Below, in pieces: positions 12,176 through 23,056 of a stretch of DNA of 32,481 nt; position 1 is the stretch's first letter; the number at the start of each line of letters is the position of its first letter. The position numbers and the translations under genes are program-made. The notes under the pieces are model-generated. The model searched no databases and was not told the origin of the DNA. It saw nothing but the letters and a program-made list of their open reading frames with translations. This stretch comes from an uncultured Gammaproteobacteria bacterium (GTDB taxonomy: Bacteria; Pseudomonadota; Gammaproteobacteria; Steroidobacterales; Woeseiaceae), in the NCBI GenBank assembly GCA_937899415.1, contig CALBPI010000037.1:1-32481 (forward strand), in the 5' to 3' direction.

Positions 12176-12582
12176 TCCCCACGCTCGCGCACCCAGGCGC
12201 GTTCGTGCCGGACAAAGCGCTGCTCGCCGTAGTAGCTGTCCGCATCGGGCGCGGCCAGCAGGATCAGCGTCGCCTCGGGCGCCAGCCGGTCCTCGGTGTG
12301 GTCGATCAAAGCCCCGCCAATGCCGCGGCCCTGGTATTCGGCATCCACGGCCAGGTCGGACAGGTAGCAACAGTAGGCGAAGTCCGTGACCGAACGCGCG
12401 GCGCCGATCAGTGTGTCGCCATCCCAGGCCGTCATCATGATGTCGGCGTTGAGCACCATGGAGGCGATGCGGTCGCGATCGCCGACCGGGCGGCGCTCGG
12501 CGAGGCCGCTTCGCTTGAGCAGGGACAGAAACTGATCCGCATCAATCGGCTCTTCGTCGGTGTAGTAGATCTCGTTACTCAC
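12142..12582 (-). CDS. GNAT family N-acetyltransferase
   Basis: A 146-residue acetyl-CoA-dependent acetyltransferase, cytosolic. Motif A is clear: YLSDLAVDAEYQGRGIGGAL, with QGRGIG as the acetyl-CoA pyrophosphate loop, and a C-terminal YYGEQRFVRHERAW strand-helix follows. Translation starts at GTG 12582, overlapping the TGA of the propeller/amidohydrolase gene (GTGA), so the two are translationally coupled. Its 3' end overlaps the convergent substrate-binding/GST gene. The acceptor is not predictable; small GNATs like this modify amines, amino acids or proteins. Coupling to a secreted amidohydrolase may only mean shared transcription. Confidence 0.9.
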   Translation of the reverse strand: MSNEIYYTDEEPIDADQFLSLLKRSGLAERRPVGDRDRIASMVLNADIMMTAWDGDTLIGAARSVTDFAYCCYLSDLAVDAEYQGRGIGGALIDHTEDRLAPEATLILLAAPDADSYYGEQRFVRHERAWVRERGDQPVVKSPKAL

Positions 12583-15500
12583 TGCGCTGCCCTTTGGTCG
12601 TGCCAGTAGAACGGCGCCGTCGTGCGGTCGCCGGTAATGCGTTCGTTCATGGTCGCTGCGTCATAGAGACGCCCGTTCTGCATGACCATATTCACGCGGT
12701 CGGTCGCGAAGATGTCCAGCGTGGGGTCGACGTCGAGCACCACGAGATCGGCAAGCTTGCCGGCTACGAGGCTGCCGAGGTCACCCTCAAAGCCCAGGTG
12801 ACGGGCCGGTTGCGTCGTGGCCGTAGCCAGCGCCTCAATGGGGCTCATGCCGCCCTGGGCGAAGCTCCAAATTTCCCAGTGACTGGCGAGACCCTCGCGC
12901 TGCCCGTGCGCGCCGATCGACACGGGCACGCCTGCGTCGGCCAGCTGTTTGGACGTACGCGCGCTGACGATGTGGTAGTAGTCCGACTCGGGTGCGAGCT
13001 CACGGCGCACAGAACGCGGCTGCAGGATGTGCGGCGGCACCCAGCGCGACAGCAGCGGGTGCTCCCAGACGTTGCTCTGCTTGTAGAAGTAGCTCTCGGC
13101 TGAGGGCCCACCGTAGGTCACGACCAGTGTCGGCGTGTAGGCCACCGCCGTCTGCGACCAGAACTGGATGATGTCGTTGTAGAGCACGGACTGCGGCAGG
13201 TTGTGCTCGATGCCCGTATTGCCATCGACGACCATCGACAGGTCCATGTGGAACAGCGAACCGCCCTCGCCCACAACGGCCATGCCTGCCTCGCGCGCCG
13301 CCACGGTCACCTGCTGGCGCTGGTCGCGGCGCGGCTGATTGTAGTTCTTGATGCTCATGGCGCCCTGCGCCTTGAGCCGGCGCACGTGCTCGCGCGCCTC
13401 ATCGATGTTGTCGACCTTGGCGAAAAACGCCGACCGGGCGCCGTAGACGATGTCGCCCGTCGAGTAGATCCGCGGCGCGAGAATCGTGCCCGCGCGCTGC
13501 ATCTCGGACGCCGCGAAGATCTCCGTTGCGTCATTGGACGGGTCATGAATTGTCGTCACGCCCAGTGCCAGCGTGGCGATGTTTTTCCAGTTCTGCTGCG
13601 GGATAATCTCGTTGCCCTGCGGGCCATGGGCATGCGCGTCAATAAAGCCTGGCACGATGGTCTTGCCCGACACGTCGAGCGTCTCGACACCCGCCGGAAT
13701 TCTTACCGATGCGCGGCTGCCGACCGACTTGATGCGGTTGCCCTCAACCAGCACGACACCGTCTTCGATGATGCCGCCCTCGGCGTCGGCCATCGTGATG
13801 ATCTTGGCGCCGACCAGCGCGAGCCGTGTATCGGGTACGTCTGAGGTGAGCTTGACGGCCATGGTCGCGCCCGAGTCCGGCGCCTCGTAACCGTCCTCAC
13901 CGGGCGACAAGGCGTCTGCAAGCTGGGTCGAGTACAGCGTGTTGCCCAGCGACCAGTACGCCGTCGCGCCGTCGCCCGAGAACTGCGGATAGTTGCCGCC
14001 ATCACCTGACAGCCGCACGAAGGGCACCGACGACACACTCGTGGAGAGCGTCAGCGCTTCGCCACCCGGCGGCAGCGGCACGGCGTAAATGTGGTAGTTC
14101 TCACGGAACACCACATGGCGCTCGTCGGGCGCCACGAACAGGCGCCGCGCGTGCTTGGCCGTCGCGTGCACGCGCAGGTCATAGCCATTGAGGTCGGTGC
14201 TGATGAGCTGCTGACCGCCGTCGGCGCGGCGCATGTACACGCGGTCGCTGCTCGCGCCGAAGTGCGGGTCGTGGCCGCGCTCTGCGATGCGCACCGCATT
14301 GCCGCCGCGCGCGGGGACACGGAACACGCCCTTGTCCTCGGACCATTCAGGCGCCGTCAGATAGCCGCCTGAGGTGGCCGAAAACACTACGAAGTCACCA
14401 TTGGGTGCGAAACGCGGGTTGCGGTAGTGACCGGGTTGCGTGGTCAACGTCCGGCTGCGGCCACCCGAGGCTGCGATACTGCGCACCTCACCCAGGCCCT
14501 CATCGGTCCAGTGCACGTAGACGACGCTGCGCCCGTCGGCCGAAAAGCTCGGGAAGAACTCGAATGCCTCGCCCTCGCGAGTCAGGCGCTTCGGCCGCCC
14601 GTTCGGCAGCGACTTGATCCAGAGCCGCCCGTTGGACTCGTACACCACGCGCTTGCCATCGGGTGCTACGGCCGGGTTGCGGATCATCTGCGTCTCGAAC
14701 GACTTGGGTGCCACCTCGATCGCGGGCCGCGGCGGTGCGTACACGGTGCGCGTATCCCGCACGCGGAACGGAATGACTTCAGCCTCACCCGTGAGCACGT
14801 TGACCTTGTTGAGCTTGCCGCCGCCCCAGATCACGACGTGCTGCGAGTCGGGCAGCCAGTCGAAGTTCGGGTAGGCGCCGTGCACGGCCCAGACTTCCTG
14901 CAGGTCCTGATCGAGTCCGTCGAAGACCTCGCGGATCGTGCCGCTCTCGAGGTCCTTGATGAACAGACGGCTGTCGGTGCGCACACGACGCACGAACGCC
15001 AGGTACTGGCCGTCAGGCGAGGGCTCGGGCCGCACGGCACCGCCGGCGCCGGACACCACGTTGGTGACGTCACCTGTGGCGAGCTCGATTCGCTCGATTC
15101 GGAAAATCTCGCTGTTGGAATCCTGGGCGTAGAGGAAGGTGATGCCCGGCGTGGCATCGCGGCTGTAGTAGATGTGCTTGCCGTCGGGTGAGAATTTCGG
15201 CTCACCGATCTCTTTTTGAAACGTGTCGCTGGGGCGCTTGGTGACCTGCACGCCGTTGCCGCCATCGACGTGATAGAGCCAGATCTCACCCGTGCCCAGC
15301 GAGCGCATCGTGGTGAAGTGCTTGCGCGCCGCGATGTACTGGCCGTCCGCCGACCAGGTCGGATTGTTGAGCAGTCTGAAGCTCTCTTCCGTGAGCGGGC
15401 GTGCATTGTCGCCATCGGCGTCCATGATCCAGATGTTGTCGCCGCCACCGGCATCCGAGGTGTAGGCGATCTGACTGCCGTCGGGCGAGAAGCGCGGTTG

Positions 15501-15764
15501 CATGGACCATTCGATACCGGGCGCGAGGTTCACGGCATCGCCGCCGGTCACGGGCACTGTGTAGATGTCGCCGAGCAGGTCGAACACGATGGTTTTGCCG
15601 TCGGGGCTCACGTCAAGGCTGAGCCAGGTGCCCTCGTCGGTGTCGATGCGGATGCTGCTGGCGTCCCCAGGTAGTTCGGTAACGGCCCACGCCGCGTCGT
15701 CGTCGGCAAACGTATTGCCGGACAGGCACAGCACCGTGATCAGGGCACAGGACAGGGTTCGCAT
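12579..15764 (-). CDS. Secreted TolB-like beta-propeller / amidohydrolase protein
   Basis: A 1061-residue two-domain exported hydrolase. Residues 1-20 form a signal peptide ending NTFA. From about 45 to 615 there are repeated PD40 (TolB/tricorn-type) blades marked by SPDGK, SPDGSQIAYTSD, SADGQYIAARKH, SPDGKHIYYSRD, SPDGQYLAFVRR, APDGKRVVYESN, SADGRSVVY and APNGDFVVFSA. Residues from about 648 form an amidohydrolase-superfamily domain: GFIDAHAHG gives the metal-binding H711 and H713, MSIKNYNQ carries a Lys suited to carbamate bridging, EHNLPQ and SIGAHGQ supply later His residues, and GSLVAGKLADLVVLDVDP is the usual terminal strand. Such enzymes hydrolyse peptides, prolyl dipeptides or cyclic amides in the periplasm. 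GGAG precedes the ATG. First gene of a two-gene operon with the GNAT gene. Confidence 0.92.
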   Translation of the reverse strand: MRTLSCALITVLCLSGNTFADDDAAWAVTELPGDASSIRIDTDEGTWLSLDVSPDGKTIVFDLLGDIYTVPVTGGDAVNLAPGIEWSMQPRFSPDGSQIAYTSDAGGGDNIWIMDADGDNARPLTEESFRLLNNPTWSADGQYIAARKHFTTMRSLGTGEIWLYHVDGGNGVQVTKRPSDTFQKEIGEPKFSPDGKHIYYSRDATPGITFLYAQDSNSEIFRIERIELATGDVTNVVSGAGGAVRPEPSPDGQYLAFVRRVRTDSRLFIKDLESGTIREVFDGLDQDLQEVWAVHGAYPNFDWLPDSQHVVIWGGGKLNKVNVLTGEAEVIPFRVRDTRTVYAPPRPAIEVAPKSFETQMIRNPAVAPDGKRVVYESNGRLWIKSLPNGRPKRLTREGEAFEFFPSFSADGRSVVYVHWTDEGLGEVRSIAASGGRSRTLTTQPGHYRNPRFAPNGDFVVFSATSGGYLTAPEWSEDKGVFRVPARGGNAVRIAERGHDPHFGASSDRVYMRRADGGQQLISTDLNGYDLRVHATAKHARRLFVAPDERHVVFRENYHIYAVPLPPGGEALTLSTSVSSVPFVRLSGDGGNYPQFSGDGATAYWSLGNTLYSTQLADALSPGEDGYEAPDSGATMAVKLTSDVPDTRLALVGAKIITMADAEGGIIEDGVVLVEGNRIKSVGSRASVRIPAGVETLDVSGKTIVPGFIDAHAHGPQGNEIIPQQNWKNIATLALGVTTIHDPSNDATEIFAASEMQRAGTILAPRIYSTGDIVYGARSAFFAKVDNIDEAREHVRRLKAQGAMSIKNYNQPRRDQRQQVTVAAREAGMAVVGEGGSLFHMDLSMVVDGNTGIEHNLPQSVLYNDIIQFWSQTAVAYTPTLVVTYGGPSAESYFYKQSNVWEHPLLSRWVPPHILQPRSVRRELAPESDYYHIVSARTSKQLADAGVPVSIGAHGQREGLASHWEIWSFAQGGMSPIEALATATTQPARHLGFEGDLGSLVAGKLADLVVLDVDPTLDIFATDRVNMVMQNGRLYDAATMNERITGDRTTAPFYWHDQRAAQ

Positions 15765-15881
15765 TGAAAGGCTCCGAGCGCTCGTCGTGCCGGAAGCTTA
15801 AACGAATCATCTGCGTCGTGTCGGACCACCCCCCGCGCGTCCGCATCCCTGTAGAATTGCGGGACTTGCATGGGGGCGTGC

Positions 15882-17273
15882 ATGACCATCAGCGTTTTCA
15901 ATCTGTTCAAGATCGGCATCGGGCCGTCGAGCTCGCACACCGTCGGGCCCATGGTGGCGGCGGCGCAGTTCGTCGACAGTCTCGTCGAAGCCGGCACGCT
16001 CGCGAGCGTCGCCAACGTACGCGTGGCGTTGTTCGGCTCACTGGGCGCCACGGGGCGCGGCCACGGTACGCACAAAGCCGTACAGCTCGGCCTGCTGGGC
16101 CACGCGCCGGATGCTGTCGATCCCGACGCTGTCCCTGCGCTGCTCAACCAGATCGCCGACACGCAGTCGCTCACGCTGGGCGGGCAACACGCCGTTGACT
16201 TCGACCCGAAGCAGAATCTCGTCTTCGAGGTGCGCAAGCGCCTGCCCTATCACCCTAACGCCATGCGCATTACGGCCATGGATGCGCGCGGCGACACCGT
16301 GAGCGAGCGCGCCTACTACTCCATCGGCGGTGGCTTTGTCGTCGACGAGGCACAGGCCAGCGAAGGCGTCATCGTGGCCGAGGACGTTGCCTTGCCTTTG
16401 CGCTTCACGACAGGCGCCGAGCTGCTCGCGCACTGCGAGGCTCGCGGCATGGGCATCTCCGACGTGATGCGCGAAAACGAACGCGCCTGGCGCAGCGACG
16501 CTGGAATCGACGCGGGCCTCGACGCCATCTGGCAGGCCATGCAGGACTGCGTCGCACGCGGCTGTCGCACAGACGGCGAGCTACCGGGCCTCAAGGTAAG
16601 GCGGCGCGCTGCCGACCTTTACCGCCAGCTCGAGTCGGGCGCGGGCCCCAGCGACCCGTTGACGATCATGGACTGGGTCAACCTCTGGGCCCTGGCCGTC
16701 AACGAGGAGAACGCCGCGGGCGGGCGCGTGGTGACAGCGCCCACGAACGGGGCTGCGGGCATCGTCCCGGCCGTGCTGCACTACTACACCCAGTTCTGCG
16801 AGGGCGCCTGCGACGACGGCGTGCGCCGCTTCCTGCTCACCTGCGGCGCCATCGGCATCCTGTTCAAGGAGAACGCCTCCATCTCGGGGGCCGAGGTCGG
16901 CTGCCAGGGTGAGGTCGGGTCCGCCTGCTCCATGGCCGCCGGCGCCTTGACCGAAGTGCGCGGCGGCACGCCCGAGCAGTGCGAAAACGCCGCGGAAATC
17001 GGTATGGAACACAATCTGGGTTTGACCTGCGACCCCATCGCAGGGCTCGTGCAGGTGCCCTGCATCGAGCGCAACGCCATGGCGTCCGTCAAAGCCATCA
17101 ACGCAAGCCGGTTGGCGCTGCGAGGCGACGGCCGCCACATGGTCTCGCTCGACAAGGTCATCAAGACCATGCGAGACACGGGCCGGGACATGCAGGACAA
17201 GTACAAGGAAACAGCGCGCGGCGGCCTGGCCGCCAACGTCGTTGAGGTCCCCGTCAGCTTTGTGGATTGCTGA
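15882..17273 (+). CDS. sdaA: L-serine dehydratase, single-chain iron-sulfur type
   Basis: Converts L-serine to pyruvate and ammonia using a [4Fe-4S] cluster; cytosolic. It is 463 residues from ATG 15882, which gives the family N-terminus [20 protein letters not shown]; an ATG 12 nt upstream is in frame but less typical. SSSHT (17-21) is the hallmark of the N-terminal domain. Cys341, Cys383 and Cys394 match the cluster ligands C343, C385 and C396 known in the E. coli enzyme. [16 protein letters not shown] and [19 protein letters not shown] are the conserved catalytic-domain blocks. It is divergent from the propeller/amidohydrolase gene. Its 3' end overlaps the convergent flavoprotein gene by 20 bp. 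A TAGAAT hexamer at 15855 could be the -10. Confidence 0.96.
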
Positions 17274-19278
17274 CGCGGGCGCCCAGCAGCTGCTCCGCAA
17301 TCGCGTGGCCCTCACGCGTTGCCGCCATGACGGTACGCGGTGACAGGCAGTCGCCAATGACGTGCACGGGCAAGCCCGCCGCTTCGAGTGGCGGGCGGAG
17401 TGCGGCTCGCGGAACGCGCGGCGTGGCAAAGGTCACGGCCGCGATGTCCTCAATGCGCGCCGTGTCGCCGTTGAATACGTTGCGATATTCAAACGCAGCT
17501 TCTTCCAGCGCCTCGACGCCCGTCGGCACGGCCGAGGTCACGATGCGAACGCGGCATTCGTAGAGTCGCCGGTACGTCTTCTGCCGCGTGACGAGTGCAA
17601 CGTCCGTGGCCACGCGCTCGCGCGGCGTGATGAGCACCACCTCGTCGAACCAGTCGCTCAAGTACTCGGCGGCCGCGTAGGTCATCTCGGTGTGATCCTG
17701 GTCGTAGATCACGAGCCGGCCGTCGCTCTTGGCGGGGCGTGGCAGAAAATCGGCGCACAGCGTTCGCAGGTCAGGGACGAGTCCCTCCTGGCGCCAGTCG
17801 GCGTCGAGCCACTGCGGTGTCGACAGGCCTGCGCCCGTGGCAAGGACCACAGCGCTTGGATCGCTGCCTGTGATATCGGCCAACTGTGCCTCCGACCCCA
17901 TCACGAACCGCGCGCCGGCCTTTTGCGCGCGCAAGGTCTGGTAGTCGTAAACGCTCGAAAGGTTTTCGCCACCAGGCAGCTCGGCGTGCAGGCGTGTCGC
18001 GCCGCCCGGCTCATCGCCGCGGCCGAACACCGTCACCTCGTGCCCGGCCTCGGCCAGAATCCAGGCCGCCTCCATGCCCGCGACGCCCGCACCCACGACG
18101 GCGAATCGCTGCGGCTTTGTAGTGCGCGCGGGATGCCAGTCCCCTTCGTCGGCACGACCCACGCGCGGATTGTTGTCACACTCGAGGTGGTTCTTTTCGA
18201 TGATCGCGCGCCAGCAGCTGTTGCATGACACGCAGTAACGAATCTCGGCCTCGCGCCCTTCGGCCGCCTTGCGCGGCAGCCAGGGGTCGGTCACGAGCGC
18301 ACGCGCGAGCATGACGAGCTCGGCCTTGCCATCGGCGATCTGTCGCTCACCCTGCATGGGGTCTGTGATGTAGCCCAGCGCGCCCGTCGGAATGTCCGGG
18401 GCGACGGCGCGCAGTTCGGCCGTCGGGTCAACGTAGGGTACGGCGGGCCCGTGGGCGTCGGGAAGATGCTCGTAGAGGGAATTCGCGTGCGAGCCCCAGG
18501 CGAACGACCAGAAATCGATGTGGCCCGTGGCGGCCACGTGCGCGGCGATATCCCGGGCCAACGCAAGGTCGACACTGTTGGCGACGCCATCGATGCCGGG
18601 CAGCTTCACGCCGATGGCGAAGTCTGGTCCGCAGCGCTCACGGATCTCGCTGATGACGCTTGTCAGCAGGCGTGCGCGATTCTCAAGGCTGCCGCCGTAG
18701 TAGTCATCGCGCACGTTCGACCAGGGCGAGAGAAACTGATGGAACAGGTGACCGTGGCCCGCTGAGATTTCGCAGCCTGTGACGCCAACGGCCGCCAGCT
18801 TCTGACAGCTCTCAGCCATGCCGTCGATCATGGCCTCGATCTCTCCCGCCGTCAGCTCGCGCGGCACCGTCCAGCTGATGTCGTCAGGCAAAGGCGAAGC
18901 GCCGTAGGCGTCGTCGATACGCCCGCCCTCGTGACGACCGCGACCGCGGTCCTGCACCTGCACGAAGAAGCGGCAGTCGTGCGCCTCGATGCGCTCGACC
19001 ATACGAGCGATGCCGTCGAGCGCGCGGCCGTCGAACACGGCCAGGCGTGAGGGCGCGTTTTGCCCAGGTGCTACGTTCATCGGTTCACTGACAATCGCAC
19101 CCGCACCGCCCCCGGCGCGACTGACGAAGTAGTTTTCATAGGCGTCTGTGACGAGACCCTCACGCGCATAGCGCGTGGTCATCGAGGCATGAATGATGCG
19201 GTTTCTGAGCCGCTGACCGCCGAGCTGGATCGGCGAGAACGTCAGCGGGTAACCCACGACCGTTGTCTCCGCGGTCAC
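17254..19278 (-). CDS. FadH/trimethylamine-dehydrogenase-like Fe-S flavoprotein oxidoreductase
   Basis: A 674-residue multi-cofactor enzyme, the same size as E. coli 2,4-dienoyl-CoA reductase. Residues 10-345 form an FMN TIM barrel of the old yellow enzyme family ([20 protein letters not shown], then YGGSLENR). C349, C352, C355 and C367 would hold a [4Fe-4S] cluster. The first three are spaced CX2CX2C, as in trimethylamine dehydrogenase, rather than CX2CX3C as in FadH. Residues 390 on form the FAD/NAD(P) domain (VVGAGVAG). GTG 19278 is chosen as start, 4 bp after the stop of the membrane protein gene; the first in-frame ATG lies inside the barrel. Possible activities are N-demethylation, enoate reduction or amine dehydrogenation. 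The substrate is unknown. Last gene of the methyltransferase operon. Confidence 0.88.
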
Positions 19279-19282
19279 GCCG

Positions 19283-19951
19283 CTAGCCGAACGCGTACTT
19301 GGACAGCCCGAGGAACGCCGCGCCAAGCGTGCAGGCGTAAATACCGATGACGCTTGTGTAGGTCGTATCCATGGCACCTTTGATCTGCTTTTCGAGCTCG
19401 GGCGTCGAGCCCGTCTCAGGCAGCGTCATAAAACCGATCACTGCGGGCTGAAACGCTTTCTCGAGCCAGAGTACGAGCACGAGGATCACGGATAGCAGCG
19501 CAAGCTTGCCGAAAAGCCAGCTCGGACCGACGACGGACGTGCCCAGGGTCGCCGAGGCGATCACGCCCAGGAATGCCAACAACAGCAGGTAGTAGATGAC
19601 CTTCTCGGAAAGCTCGACCCAGTGCGGCGCCTGCTCGGACAGCACGCGTGCCACGATCACCACGAACCACGCGATCAGCACGGCAAAGCAGGTAAGCGTG
19701 AGCCAACTCGGCAAGGTGATCCAACCTGCGGTCACAGACAGGTAGAAACCCGTGGACACGGCCGTGACCATACTCACGCGCGGAAACTTGTCGACGATGA
19801 GTGCGACTTGCAATAACAGCAGTCGCTGCTCGACCGTGTAGGCCGGGTTCTGTGCAAACTTGCCAAGGATAAAGACGCCGATGTCAGCGCCGAGCCAGAA
19901 AACGAACGCGAGCAGGTGGACGAACAGGACGAGCGTGTAGAGCTCGCTCAC
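19283..19951 (-). CDS. Six-helix integral membrane protein
   Basis: A 222-residue inner-membrane protein with predicted segments near 6-29, 57-78, 82-102, 118-137, 145-163 and 198-216. His12 in the first helix (FVHLLAFVFWLGADIG) recalls the CopD/DUF2269-type membrane proteins that can bind haem or copper, but the match is by feel only. A short soluble stretch (178-195, GSTPELEKQIKGAMD) precedes the last helix. Start ATG 19951 overlaps the previous gene's stop by 4 bp (ATGA). The next gene, the Fe-S flavoprotein, starts 4 bp after its stop. This tight packing suggests it works with the flavoprotein, perhaps as an electron-transfer or transport partner (inference). Confidence 0.75.
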   Translation of the reverse strand: MSELYTLVLFVHLLAFVFWLGADIGVFILGKFAQNPAYTVEQRLLLLQVALIVDKFPRVSMVTAVSTGFYLSVTAGWITLPSWLTLTCFAVLIAWFVVIVARVLSEQAPHWVELSEKVIYYLLLLAFLGVIASATLGTSVVGPSWLFGKLALLSVILVLVLWLEKAFQPAVIGFMTLPETGSTPELEKQIKGAMDTTYTSVIGIYACTLGAAFLGLSKYAFG

Positions 19952-20298
19952 GCGTCAGCCTCGGCAATTGTGGCGTCGCCGAATTCGTCCTGCGCCTTCT
20001 GGATTTCGGCGCGCGGCGTGAACTCCGACTCGAGCGTGCGCAGGATGGTCTGCAGGTACTCGGCGCGTTTGGCGTCGAGCGCCGCCCGGGCCTCGCCCTC
20101 GGGTTCCCAGGCCTCGATACGCGCGGCCAGATCAGGGGCCGCCTCGCCAAGCACAGCCTCAAGCGCGGCCATGCGTTCCTTGGTCACCCAAAGCTCGGTC
20201 GTGAGCTCCAGCACCATGGTGACCATGGCGTCGAGCGCCTTGTCTTCAAAAAAAGCGGGGCGCCGGCCTTTGGCCGAGCGTGGCATCGGTTCGGACAT
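19948..20298 (-). CDS. Small hypothetical protein, helical and charged
   Basis: 116 residues, not recognised. It begins with a basic stretch (PRSAKGRRPAFFEDK). A mostly helical, Glu/Ala-rich body follows (ALDAMVTMVLELTTELWVTK, ERMAALEAVLGE, LDAKRAEYLQTILRTLESEF) that could form a coiled coil or helical bundle. There is no signal peptide or membrane segment, and no Cys or obvious catalytic motif. It starts 12 nt after the methyltransferase stop and its stop overlaps the membrane protein start (ATGA), so it is translated as part of the operon. A structural or accessory subunit for a neighbouring enzyme is possible. Alternative start: ATG 20286. Confidence 0.7.
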   Translation of the reverse strand: MSEPMPRSAKGRRPAFFEDKALDAMVTMVLELTTELWVTKERMAALEAVLGEAAPDLAARIEAWEPEGEARAALDAKRAEYLQTILRTLESEFTPRAEIQKAQDEFGDATIAEADA

Positions 20299-20310
20299 GA
20301 GGTCGCCGCG

Positions 20311-21498
20311 CTACTTGCGCGCCCCGAAGCCATACCAGCAAATGCCATCCGTGAGCCTGCCCGTCTTGTCGTTGAAGCGGCCGTCGGCGTGAATCACCTC
20401 GTCGAAGAACGCTTCGTCGGAATGGCCCCAGCTTGGCATCACCGTCTCGAAGTAGGCGTCGCCGTCGAAGCCCGCGTCGGCAATCAGGGTCGGGTAGTCC
20501 TGGTCGCGGAACGGTTTGTAGTAGGGCTCCTGGTTGTAGTAGCTGTCCCAGTCCAGGTAGAAGCTGTCGTAAGGCGCCGACTGGTTGTTCGGCGGCAGCT
20601 CCATGGTGAGCAGGATGCCGCCGGGCTTGAGCACGCGGTAGGCCTCAGCCAGCGCCTTGCGGATGTCCTTGAGCGGCAGCTCGTGCAGGAACATCGACGA
20701 GTACACCAGATCGAAGTGGTTGTCGGGGTAGTCGAGCTTCGTCGCGCTCATCTGGCGGAAGTGCACGGGCACCTCGAGCGCCTGCGCGCGCGCGTGCGCA
20801 TAACGCAGCGCGGGTGCGGCCACGTCGATGGCGTGCACTTCGCACTCCGGAAAGAGCTTTGCGAACGGCAGCGTGTTGTGCCCGACGGTGCAGCCCATAT
20901 CCAGCATGCGCTCGGGGTTAAGGTCCTTGAAGCGCAGGCGAACATAGTTCGAGAACGAGTCGCCAATATCGCAGAGGTGCTCGCCCATCATGCCGGCCGC
21001 AAACACATTTAGTCCCTGATCGTAGATGGCGCCCGTGGCCACATCGCCTTCCGTGAATTCGCTGTGGTAGCAACCGGGCGCGAGATGCACGTCCAGACGC
21101 GTTACGTTCTTCGGCACCTCAAACTCAGGGTCGAGCGTCAGCGAACCGCCCACGTCACGATCCGACAACGACTTCGCCTTATCGGCCAGCGACTTGAGAT
21201 TGCGCTCGATGCCCGGGATGACCGACTGCCAGACCATTTCCTGCGCGTTGTAGCGGATGCTCGAATAAAAGCGGAAGTAGTCCTCTTCCTTCATGAGCTT
21301 GTGCACGGTCGGGCCATCGGCAGGCGCCTCGCCGTGCTCGCGCTCGTAACGGGGCGCGACCTGATCGTGATAGTGGCGATGCATATTGTCGGCCATGTTG
21401 ACCAGCACGTGGCCGCGCAGCTGTGCTACGAAACTCTTACGTGCCCGCTCGTCGCGGCTGGCCGTCATGCTCATCTCGTGGGTGAGGTCGGTGATCAT
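20311..21498 (-). CDS. Class I SAM-dependent methyltransferase with N-terminal domain
   Basis: About 395 residues from ATG 21498; the frame also opens at TTG 21540 but the ATG is preferred. Residues about 195-310 form the SAM-binding Rossmann fold: motif I LDMGCTVGHN, acidic residue in EVHAIDVAAP, motif III-like DLVYSSMFLHELPLKDI, and RVLKPGGILLTMELPPNNQ, the arrangement of UbiE/small-molecule methyltransferases. The first 180 or so residues are a helical domain not typical of the minimal fold (DYFRFYSSIRYNAQEMVWQS), perhaps for substrate binding or dimerisation. It heads the minus-strand operon with the Fe-S flavoprotein and is divergent from the HapK/SDR pair across 150 bp. The substrate is unknown, but a pairing with a redox enzyme and an SDR suits a small-molecule pathway. 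Confidence 0.87.
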   Translation of the reverse strand: MITDLTHEMSMTASRDERARKSFVAQLRGHVLVNMADNMHRHYHDQVAPRYEREHGEAPADGPTVHKLMKEEDYFRFYSSIRYNAQEMVWQSVIPGIERNLKSLADKAKSLSDRDVGGSLTLDPEFEVPKNVTRLDVHLAPGCYHSEFTEGDVATGAIYDQGLNVFAAGMMGEHLCDIGDSFSNYVRLRFKDLNPERMLDMGCTVGHNTLPFAKLFPECEVHAIDVAAPALRYAHARAQALEVPVHFRQMSATKLDYPDNHFDLVYSSMFLHELPLKDIRKALAEAYRVLKPGGILLTMELPPNNQSAPYDSFYLDWDSYYNQEPYYKPFRDQDYPTLIADAGFDGDAYFETVMPSWGHSDEAFFDEVIHADGRFNDKTGRLTDGICWYGFGARK

Positions 21499-21648
21499 TC
21501 GGGTACTGCCTGGGTGAGAGTTAGACAGAGCAACATACAAAGCACCCCAGCGCCGGTCAATACAGCCCGGTCGCTGCGACGTCTAATACGTGTTGCGCTT
21601 TCACCCCTCTGGTATGTTGAACGCGCTTCGACACAGCTGGAGTTTGTC

Positions 21649-21972
21649 ATGATGGTCATCATCGCCCTCTTCAACCTGCAGGACGCCGCAGCCAAGGCCG
21701 AATACGAGGCCTGGGCGCTCTCGACGGACCTGCCGACCGTACGCAAAATGGATTCCGTCGATCGCTTCGACACCCTGCGCACCAAGATGCTGCTGGGTAC
21801 CGATTCGCCACCGCCTTACGAATACATCGAAATCATCGAGCTCAATGACTTCGGCCGTTTTGGCGAAGAGGTCGCCACGGAGACTATGCAGCGCGTTGCC
21901 GGCGAATTTCGTGGCTTTGCCAAAGACCCGCAGTTCATTGTCTGCGACCTGCTCGACGGGGGCGGCGCATGA
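21649..21972 (+). CDS. HapK/RedY-like small protein (dimeric alpha-beta barrel type)
   Basis: 107 residues: begins MMVIIALFNLQDAAAKAEYE, then STDLPTVRKMDSVDRFDTLR and PPPYEYIEIIELNDFGRFGE. I recognise this pattern as the REDY/HapK-like family named after proteins in prodigiosin-type clusters; the biochemical role is not established to my knowledge. Size and beta-alpha-beta pattern fit the dimeric ferredoxin-like barrels that handle hydrophobic small molecules. GGAG sits 6 nt before ATG 21649, so the longer upstream frame is rejected. The stop overlaps the SDR start (ATGA), so the two are co-translated. It is divergent from the methyltransferase operon. Confidence 0.8.
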   Translation: MMVIIALFNLQDAAAKAEYEAWALSTDLPTVRKMDSVDRFDTLRTKMLLGTDSPPPYEYIEIIELNDFGRFGEEVATETMQRVAGEFRGFAKDPQFIVCDLLDGGGA

Positions 21973-22799
21973 AGCCGCTCGCAGGCAAAGTTGCCATTTG
22001 TACGGGCAGCGGCCGTCCAGGCGGACTGGGCCAGGGCATCCTGCACAAGCTCGCGGAAGATGGTGCCGACGTCGTCGTCACGGACCTGGGCCGCAATGCC
22101 GAACTGCTCGACGACGGTGATATCGGCAACACTGATGAAATGGAAACCACCGCGGAGGCGCTGCGCGAACACGGCACGCGCGTGCTCGTGCGCCCCTGCG
22201 ATGTGCGCGACCCGGCTGCCGTCCAGGCGCTCGTCGATGCGACCGTCGACCAATTCGGCCGACTCGACATCATGGTCAACAACGCCGGTGTGGGCTTCGT
22301 CATGAAGCCACTGCTCGAACTCAAACCCGAGGACTGGGATCTCGTTATCGACGTGAATCTGACGGGCGCGTTCTACGGCAGCCAGACCGCCGCAGCGCAG
22401 ATGGTCAAACAGGGCGGCGGCGGGCGCATCATTAACATCGCAAGCCAGGCGGCCAAGTCAGGCTTCCCGCACATGGCACCTTACTGCGCGAGCAAACACG
22501 GCATGGTCGGCCTGACGCGGACCTGCGCCATCGACCTGGGTGCGCACGGCATCACGGTGAATGCGGTGTGCCCCAACCATGTCACAACGGGCCTGGGCGC
22601 CAAGCAGAACGAGTACTTTGCGAAGTTTCGCGGCGTGTCCGTCGAGGACTACCGCGCAGCACTGGCGGCTCGCATCCCGCTGGGGCGCCCGGGACTGACG
22701 GATGACACAGCTAATGCTGTGGCCTGGCTTGCGAGCGACGCCGCCCAGTACATCACGGGCGAAGCGCTGAACGTCTCAGGTGGTGAGGAGATGCACTAG
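21969..22799 (+). CDS. Short-chain dehydrogenase/reductase (SDR)
   Basis: 276-residue classical SDR: NAD(P)-dependent oxidation of an alcohol or reduction of a ketone. The nucleotide-binding turn is CTGSGRPGGLGQGI (11-24), longer than the usual TGxxxGxG. D39 after the second strand favours NAD. NNAG (104-107), N130, S159, Y172 and K176 (YCASK) form the catalytic set. The C-terminal ITGEALNVSGGEEMH matches the family's last strand. Translation is coupled to the HapK-like gene by ATGA. Between strand 2 and helix 3 there is an acidic insertion (DDGDIGNTDEMETT), unusual for the simplest members. No terminator is seen other than the REP-like repeats 10 bp downstream. Confidence 0.93.
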   Translation: MKPLAGKVAICTGSGRPGGLGQGILHKLAEDGADVVVTDLGRNAELLDDGDIGNTDEMETTAEALREHGTRVLVRPCDVRDPAAVQALVDATVDQFGRLDIMVNNAGVGFVMKPLLELKPEDWDLVIDVNLTGAFYGSQTAAAQMVKQGGGGRIINIASQAAKSGFPHMAPYCASKHGMVGLTRTCAIDLGAHGITVNAVCPNHVTTGLGAKQNEYFAKFRGVSVEDYRAALAARIPLGRPGLTDDTANAVAWLASDAAQYITGEALNVSGGEEMH

Positions 22800-22808
22800 C
22801 CCGGCACC

Positions 22809-22945
22809 GTCATTGCGAGCCTGCGCAGCCGTTTACCGTCATTGCGAGGGGCGAGCCGTTTGATGTCATTGCGAGGGGCGAGCCGTTTGATGTCATCGCG
22901 AGGGGCGAGCCGTTTGATGTCATCGCGAGGGGCGAGCCGTTTGAT
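22809..22945 (+). repeat. Five tandem partial REP units, 27-bp period
   Basis: The unit begins GTCATTGCGAG, continues GGGCGAGCC and ends GTTTGAT. Exact 27-bp copies start at 22838, 22865, 22892 and 22919, the last two with T to C in ATTGC. A diverged 29-bp copy (22809-22837) has CTGCGCAGCC in the middle. Each unit has the REP head but lost the pairing tail, so it is a local tandem expansion of a truncated REP. It lies between the convergent SDR and small membrane protein genes. Confidence 0.92.
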
Positions 22946-23056
22946 GTCATTGCGAGGGGCGAAGCCCCGCGGCAATCTCCTGACGTCGCGATGCCGTCTA
23001 GAGATTGCCGCGCCTGCTGCGCAGGCTCGCAATGACGGTAGTGGGCTCGCAATGAC
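22946..23056. repeat. Inverted pair of REP-like hairpins (REPIN-like) plus a fragment
   Basis: A complete unit (22946-22979) has the GTCATTGCGAG head, the stem GGGGC-GAA-GCCCC and the GGCAATCTC tail. After a 21-bp spacer there is a complete unit in inverse orientation (23001-23036: GAGATTGCC ... GCCTGC/GCAGGC ... CTCGCAATGAC). A further inverse head fragment GGCTCGCAATGAC lies at 23044-23056. Two REPs in inverted orientation are the mobile unit (REPIN) in REP-carrying genomes; the tyrosine transposase that would move it is not in this window. It probably ends both convergent transcripts. Confidence 0.85.

Follow-up and report, generated by a model that had tools for sequence, protein, structure and literature searches.

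What do six closely spaced genes, arranged in opposite directions around a single short intergenic region, contribute to the metabolism of an uncultured gammaproteobacterium of the family Woeseiaceae? These genes, which we refer to as OYE, MEM, SMALL, MT, HapK, and SDR, are located on a stretch of 32,481 bases (in the following, the window) that coincides exactly with contig CALBPI010000037.1, so that the locus can be read only up to these ends. An initial annotation had proposed that they form one catabolic or biosynthetic pathway. On balance, our sequence comparisons lead us to favor the view that the six genes constitute a block within a conserved and partly dispersed pathway for the catabolism of an N-heterocyclic natural compound (a lactam or a cyclic imide).

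A Divergent Six-Gene Locus and Its Conservation

Gene content and order, recurrence, co-occurrence, and the conservation of folds and motifs are the features that our data support directly. In the window, four packed genes on the minus strand, MT (20311-21498; 395 amino acids), SMALL (19948-20298; 116 amino acids), MEM (19283-19951; 222 amino acids, GTG start), and OYE (17254-19278; 674 amino acids, GTG start), diverge from the plus-strand genes HapK (21649-21972; 107 amino acids) and SDR (21969-22799; 276 amino acids) across a promoter region of 150 bp (21499-21648, read on the plus strand), as had been described initially. MT and SMALL are separated by 12 nucleotides (nt) and MEM and OYE by 4 nt, and SMALL and MEM overlap by 4 nt; this packing agrees with the initial annotation, but the overlap reads GTGA and not ATGA as given there. 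The HapK/SDR overlap on the plus strand is indeed ATGA. For MT, we prefer the ATG at position 21498 over an upstream TTG that would give a protein of 409 amino acids, and the start of OYE is best placed at position 19278.

We sampled 196 genomes of the window's order for orthologs of SDR (E ≤ 1e-70) and MT (E ≤ 1e-60). SDR is present in 33 of them, and every one of these 33 genomes also possesses MT (8.9 expected; 53/196 overall). The PD2 type encoded on plasmid pJE1 (see below) co-occurs with SDR in 23 of the 33 (6.7 expected; 40/196 overall) and HyuA in 31 (16.5 expected; 98/196 overall). Counted by genus, the 12 SDR carriers comprise 12 with MT, nine with PD2, and 11 with HyuA.

The hits in the 33 genomes, the window included, amount to 36 SDR places, around which neighbors were counted within 10 kb; hits less than 49% identical to the pJE1 SDR were skipped, and since L202, L204, L209, L213, and other loci end at contig edges, absences there are lower bounds. 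HapK was found near SDR at 19 places, OYE and MT at 18 each, SMALL at 17, and MEM at eight. HapK, MT, SMALL, and OYE occur together at 12 of the 36 places, and HapK, MT, SMALL, and MEM at three. The initial annotation had named rare adjacency in relatives as an outcome that would speak against a common function; within the order, the genes evidently do keep company. Seven sister loci (L210, L214, L215, L217, L220, L221, and L230) share the divergent order of OYE-SMALL-MT against HapK-SDR, without a MEM gene between SMALL and OYE, so that eight SDR places, the window among them, have this order in common. Because the same arrangement, MEM aside, recurs in seven related loci, it goes beyond what chance would produce. 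Four further loci (L038, L200, L201, and L203) contain the four-gene set in another order, together with a VOC gene. Two loci from the window's own family (L219 and L232) possess a collinear MT-SMALL-MEM-HapK-SDR array that is surrounded by LeuCD, MmgE, FADb2, and TonB genes and lacks OYE. FADb2 is present at four of the 36 places and accompanies OYE only at L202; this small number hints that FADb2 and the non-homologous OYE may stand in for each other. In L217, a gene of the arylmalonate-decarboxylase/maleate-isomerase family adjoins OYE. Across the phylum, HapK is found in eight of 398 genomes; its strong matches outside the window's genome, in G547, G580, and G165, each lie beside SDR, and G547 has MT there as well.

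The 150-bp divergent region aligns weakly with those of the seven sister loci, and this comparison did not establish a common operator. A stretch resembling TTGTCAAA...TTTGTATA lies 5' of HapK in most of the seven and is unclear in the window.

Larger Islands and Dispersed Copies

Islands about 40 kb in size, on plasmid pJE1 and elsewhere, likewise contain relatives of HapK, SDR, MT, SMALL, and MEM. The island on pJE1 (L144; about 42 kb) holds HapK, SDR, MT, SMALL, and a relative that is 27% identical to MEM, in combination with two LeuCD sets, PEPM, CaiB, HMGL, the PuuE-like proteins PD1 and PD2, IsoCh, and HyuA/HyuB, and further with SSADH, MmgE, two oxidoreductases that bind flavin adenine dinucleotide (FAD), an MFS protein, and a TonB receptor. 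Within it, leuC-leuD-PEPM and HyuA-HyuB-SSADH form consecutive runs. Plasmid pTomTYG65b (L141) carries the same genes, 92-100% identical across the 22 kb read, and this likeness between two sphingomonad plasmids points to recent transfer of an island that seems to move. Diverged versions are present on pSA1, on an RL4 plasmid, and in the gammaproteobacterial genomes G547 and G244. HyuA of pJE1 is 82-85% identical to HyuA from four alphaproteobacterial MT islands (L063, L068, L070, and L118), from which it follows that these islands may share an intermediate. Since TonB receptors, MFS proteins, hydrolases, a CoA-transferase, and lyases are encoded nearby, the setting of the relatives is catabolic.

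The genome to which the window belongs holds 44-70% identical copies of eight pJE1 island genes on other contigs. Relative to pJE1, contig C68 encodes HyuA (69% identical), HyuB (70%), and a CaiB (30%); contig C61 encodes CaiB (61%), HMGL (68%), a VOC protein (52%), and a second MEM relative; contig C69 encodes IsoCh (60-61%), PD2 (55-56%), and PD1 (44%); and contig C54 encodes PEPM (55%) beside two MTs. Because relatives of other island genes sit on these four contigs, the six genes of the window are probably not the whole pathway. The initial notion of one pathway thus holds insofar as the genes belong together and their relatives have a catabolic setting, but not insofar as it equated the pathway with the locus.

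As to the functions of the island proteins, HyuA is closest to the alpha subunit of caprolactamase (541 bits, with the cut-off of 1000 missed), and the nearest relative of PD is the PuuE allantoinase. The closest PDB entries to IsoCh are 4l07/4l08, which we take to be the P. putida S16 maleamate amidase. PEPM matches the 2,3-dimethylmalate lyase 3fa3 with 145 bits, and several PEPM-family enzymes, including methylisocitrate lyase, score higher.

A second island occupies about 4.7-20 kb of contig C54 (L145-L147). It contains PEPM, an FADb2-like gene, and two MTs, both of which are accompanied by a SMALL-like match, along with MFS, PuuE-like, maleate-isomerase-type, FAD monooxygenase, and ALDH genes, several of which are named by cluster only.

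The Encoded Proteins

Our family scan covered the window genes at about 15.8-24.2 kb. MT is predicted to be a class I methyltransferase dependent on S-adenosylmethionine (SAM), as both the SAM motif and the fold are present in a model with a mean predicted local distance difference test score (pLDDT) of 93.8. The family match (Methyltransf_25/11) is confined to residues 199-297, and the model has extra N-terminal helices. Residues G202, C203, G206, H272, and E273 are retained in all 61 aligned relatives, D200 and D225 in 60. The 50 listed rows of a fold search (Z 15.8-17.5) include the natural-product methyltransferases SgMT, DnrK, and RedM; as these rows span less than 2 Z and several kinds of methyltransferases, they do not tell the substrate class.

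SMALL belongs to no family above cut-off, shares the motif AKGKRPxFF...D (AKGRRPAFF in the window), and is usually the traveling partner of MT, as judged from gene adjacency. Leaving aside eight of 123 full-length MTs with less than 500 nt downstream, 88 of the remaining 115 are adjacent to SMALL, which follows within 170 nt in the same orientation in 82 cases and lies directly upstream in six; in the other 27, SMALL is found elsewhere in the locus (13) or not at all (14). The SMALL profile used in this count was built from the SMALL genes of these same loci. Among the matches listed, the pair occurs in alpha- and gammaproteobacteria, cyanobacteria, a Myxococcota, and a Binatota metagenome-assembled genome (MAG); as 80 of the 317 confirmed loci were retained in the collection scan, taxon counts are not rates. 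Nostoc and its relatives (L064, L065, L077, L079, L087, L090, and L099) have similar MT-SMALL neighborhoods without labeled catabolic genes, and a trpB-like gene (named by eye) adjoins the pair in six of these seven loci. Four alphaproteobacterial MAGs (L055, L059, L093, and L106; three labeled Rhodospirillaceae) encode four to five diverged MTs with three SMALL proteins, MmgE, and an FAD monooxygenase.

OYE is an oxidoreductase of the flavin mononucleotide (FMN)/4Fe-4S/FAD type from the DCR/TMADH/2-naphthoyl-CoA reductase superfamily. It combines an Oxidored_FMN domain (PF00724, 156 bits) with Pyr_redox_2, and the Fe-S cysteines C349, C352, C355, and C367, a feature of FadH and TMADH, are invariant in all eight aligned rows. 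In this architecture, it resembles FadH, TMADH, histamine dehydrogenase, 2-naphthoyl-CoA reductase, BaiCD, and mycofactocin OYE 2, and its cluster opens with Cx2Cx2C, a spacing that we take to be that of TMADH. The best PDB match is 6qkg (named NCR), presumably 2-naphthoyl-CoA reductase, followed by histamine dehydrogenase, 2,4-dienoyl-CoA reductase (1ps9, third row), and TMADH. OYE nevertheless differs from the known flavoproteins, since it stays below cut-off in every NCBIfam family among the matches listed (25 of 49), with mycofactocin OYE 2 (TIGR03997; 440.5 of 793.15) and BaiCD (NF041087; 243.2 of 825) scoring highest. Bilirubin reductase is distant (222 bits; cut-off 750). In an alignment of eight rows that did not include E. 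coli FadH, the window protein and three near relatives have histidine at position 177, where the other four have tyrosine; the catalytic tyrosine of FadH is, we assume, Tyr166 of the E. coli enzyme. The scores of OYE and SDR had hinted at a coupling to mycofactocin, an idea that we dropped because both TIGR03997 and TIGR03971 (SDR, 236.7 of 300) were missed and because the best match to the mycofactocin radical SAM maturase in the window's genome, which is 98.4% complete, reached 32.2 bits against a cut-off of 265.

HapK is a REDY-like protein that belongs to PF11639 (39.4 bits; gathering cut-off 25), and its closest PDB entry, 2jdj (E 8.5e-7), is presumably HapK from the Hahella prodigiosin-type cluster. 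It shares its family with HapK/RedY but differs in its pairing with an SDR. The initial pointer to prodigiosin-type clusters was accordingly correct as to family membership, but among the genes scanned, it has no footing other than HapK. SDR is a member of adh_short_C2, and the classical catalytic residues S159, Y172, and K176 are invariant in all seven rows. A possible clue to HapK from a lignin-dimer transcriptome was set aside, since the table concerned offers a single 1.9-fold row without context (PMC4609964).

MEM is a helical membrane protein with no family above cut-off; DUF2269 reaches 15.8 bits against a gathering cut-off of 28. Its model (mean pLDDT 88.9) has seven helices, and no PDB match to it reached E ≤ 0.001; a new fold should not be concluded from this. 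The role of electron acceptor envisaged initially receives no backing, as the alignment has a single invariant histidine, there is no PDB match at this threshold, and outside the window, MEM was found in none of the 11 loci that combine HapK, MT, SMALL, and OYE. Likewise, we abandoned the idea of a b-type cytochrome in view of the single invariant histidine.

A Candidate Catabolic Pathway

Nitrogen rings are opened and ammonia is released by enzymes of the hydantoinase/lactamase, PuuE-like, and maleamidase-like kinds, and the hydration and cleavage of branched unsaturated diacids is the work of the LeuCD, PEPM, CaiB, and HMGL types. The joint presence of these ring-opening and diacid-cleaving families suggests a catabolic logic for a lactam or imide heterocycle, in which the window block would provide redox and methyl-transfer steps. 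From this we infer the chemistry, the order of the steps, and the partnership of the proteins. The compound would enter through a TonB receptor and would be methylated, either itself or as an early intermediate, by MT with SMALL as a subunit and MEM as a membrane partner. SDR, with HapK as its coupled partner, might then oxidize or isomerize the product, and OYE (FADb2 in the sister islands) might reduce or desaturate a C=C bond. HyuA/HyuB and the PuuE-like PD1/PD2, encoded elsewhere in the genome, would open the ring; IsoCh, likewise encoded elsewhere, would remove ammonia; and the resulting branched unsaturated diacid would be hydrated and cleaved either by LeuCD with PEPM or by CaiB and HMGL.

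Several observations weigh against this proposal. HyuAB might carboxylate a ketone instead, and IsoCh and PD might hydrolyze ureides or other amides, which makes the heterocycle a guess. The genomes that we compared share ancestry, which the Fisher values for co-occurrence ignore and consequently overstate. PD2 is missing from 10 of the 33 SDR genomes and HyuA from two, and HyuA is unspecific in that 98 of the 196 genomes carry it. HapK is present in only seven of 93 MT loci (a count that excludes L061 and L104, copies of L039 and L035), so that most MT islands lack the HapK-SDR pair; conversely, within 10 kb of SDR, HapK is missing at 17 of the 36 places and MT at 18. These places include eight genomes of a single genus, g437, in which neither HapK, MT, nor OYE lies near SDR and MT is encoded elsewhere in the genome. 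The sequence read from G580 and G165 has HapK-SDR without MT, and near three weak HapK matches elsewhere in the phylum (L138-L140), both SDR and MT are absent. The window MT is about 33% identical to that of pJE1, so that the substrates of the two may differ. Finally, LeuCD of the pJE1 type was not found on the stretches of the window's genome that were read, the rest of the genome not having been searched.

A bolder version, in which pyrrole pigments, for instance products of chlorophyll, heme, or bilin breakdown, are what the island degrades, strikes us as quite improbable. HyuAB would open lactam rings, and PD1/PD2 and IsoCh would hydrolyze dialkyl-maleimides. Each of the two kinds of pyrrole ring would have its own branch: one would proceed from methyl/ethyl-maleate via LeuCD and PEPM, and the other would convert a haematinic-acid-like triacid via CaiB, LeuCD, and HMGL into pyruvate and glutaryl-CoA. 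The presence on pJE1 of two LeuCD sets and of two types of lyase and the distant likeness of OYE to bilirubin reductase fit this scheme, and so does the link of HapK to tripyrroles; none of these proves it.

Alternative Explanations

The locus might instead comprise two units that merely share a promoter region: MT-SMALL-MEM, acting perhaps on a membrane- or quinone-type substrate, and a redox unit of HapK, SDR, and OYE. Such a division would account for the occurrence of MT, SMALL, and MEM without HapK and SDR between mutY-like (by eye) and QOR genes, where the trio is contiguous in L071 and L117 and has other genes interposed in L066 and L080, for the many other contexts of MT-SMALL, and for the HapK-SDR pairs of G580 and G165. 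We consider it unlikely, given that none of the 33 SDR genomes lacks MT and that the seven sister loci keep the divergent order. Little weight should also be given to the idea that the block serves to synthesize or alter a secondary metabolite, of the pyrrole type or another, with MT, OYE, and SDR as tailoring enzymes, HapK in a role like that in prodigiosin-type clusters, and MEM as the exporter. The membership of HapK in a family known from prodigiosin-type clusters, the natural-product methyltransferases among those nearest to the MT model, and the pairs of Nostoc and Okeania that lack labeled catabolic genes would suit this idea, but the TonB receptor, CoA-transferase, HMG-CoA-lyase-type, LeuCD, and hydantoinase genes in sister loci do not.

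A further explanation, namely that OYE is FadH (2,4-dienoyl-CoA reductase) and that the genes serve ordinary fatty-acid oxidation, had been named in the initial annotation as the one that would overturn it. We regard it as highly improbable, despite the shared superfamily and the third rank of 1ps9. The genome already encodes a second PF00724 protein (contig C67, L034) that matches the family more strongly, has tyrosine at the position of His 177, and by eye looks like FadH, while the best scores of OYE, below cut-off as they are, go to mycofactocin OYE 2 and BaiCD. Judging by these scores and its clade-specific histidine, the window flavoprotein is probably not a plain FadH.

Relation to Known Systems

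The catabolic pathway that we prefer has partial counterparts among known systems. Nicotinate fermentation proceeds through 2,3-dimethylmaleate hydratase and dimethylmalate lyase, to which the leuC-leuD-PEPM run of pJE1 and the match of PEPM to 3fa3 are similar; in contrast to that route, PEPM on pJE1 is joined to PuuE-like and maleamidase-like hydrolases, and other PEPM enzymes score higher. Lactam catabolism by HyuA/HyuB is exemplified by caprolactamase and the N-methylpyrrolidone pathway. The score of HyuA with the caprolactamase alpha subunit and the HyuA-HyuB-SSADH order recall such systems, whereas the missed cut-off and the embedding of the genes in an MT-HapK-SDR island set them apart. 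Breakdown of steroidal glycoalkaloids, considered because one island resides on a plasmid of a tomatine-degrading Sphingobium, was not supported. Passages of the paper on this degrader deal with saponin-hydrolyzing and steroid-catabolizing enzymes, and its main text does not use the word methyltransferase (PMC10653915).

The enzymes themselves belong to known superfamilies. Our literature search, which left most subscription journals outside its coverage, found no description of the gene set, the MT-SMALL pair, the island, or the pathway. That a SAM methyltransferase should be so central to catabolic islands is odd in itself. Cultured carriers exist in which to look for the substrate, among them Novosphingobium resinovorum SA1 and Novosphingobium sp. 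RL4, which both have HapK-SDR-MT. Should it be a pyrrole pigment, bacterial mineralization of tetrapyrroles would become a testable question.

Genes Flanking the Locus

Just past the SDR stop codon, a tandem repeat at 22809-22962 consists of 5.6 copies of a 27-bp unit with 92% matches. On the other side, an L-serine ammonia-lyase gene (15870-17273; TIGR00720 above cut-off) overlaps the 3' end of OYE tail-to-tail by 20 nt, and beyond it, an open reading frame at 12579-15764 encodes a protein of 1061 amino acids that, judged by eye from its translation, looks like an exported beta-propeller and amidohydrolase protein.

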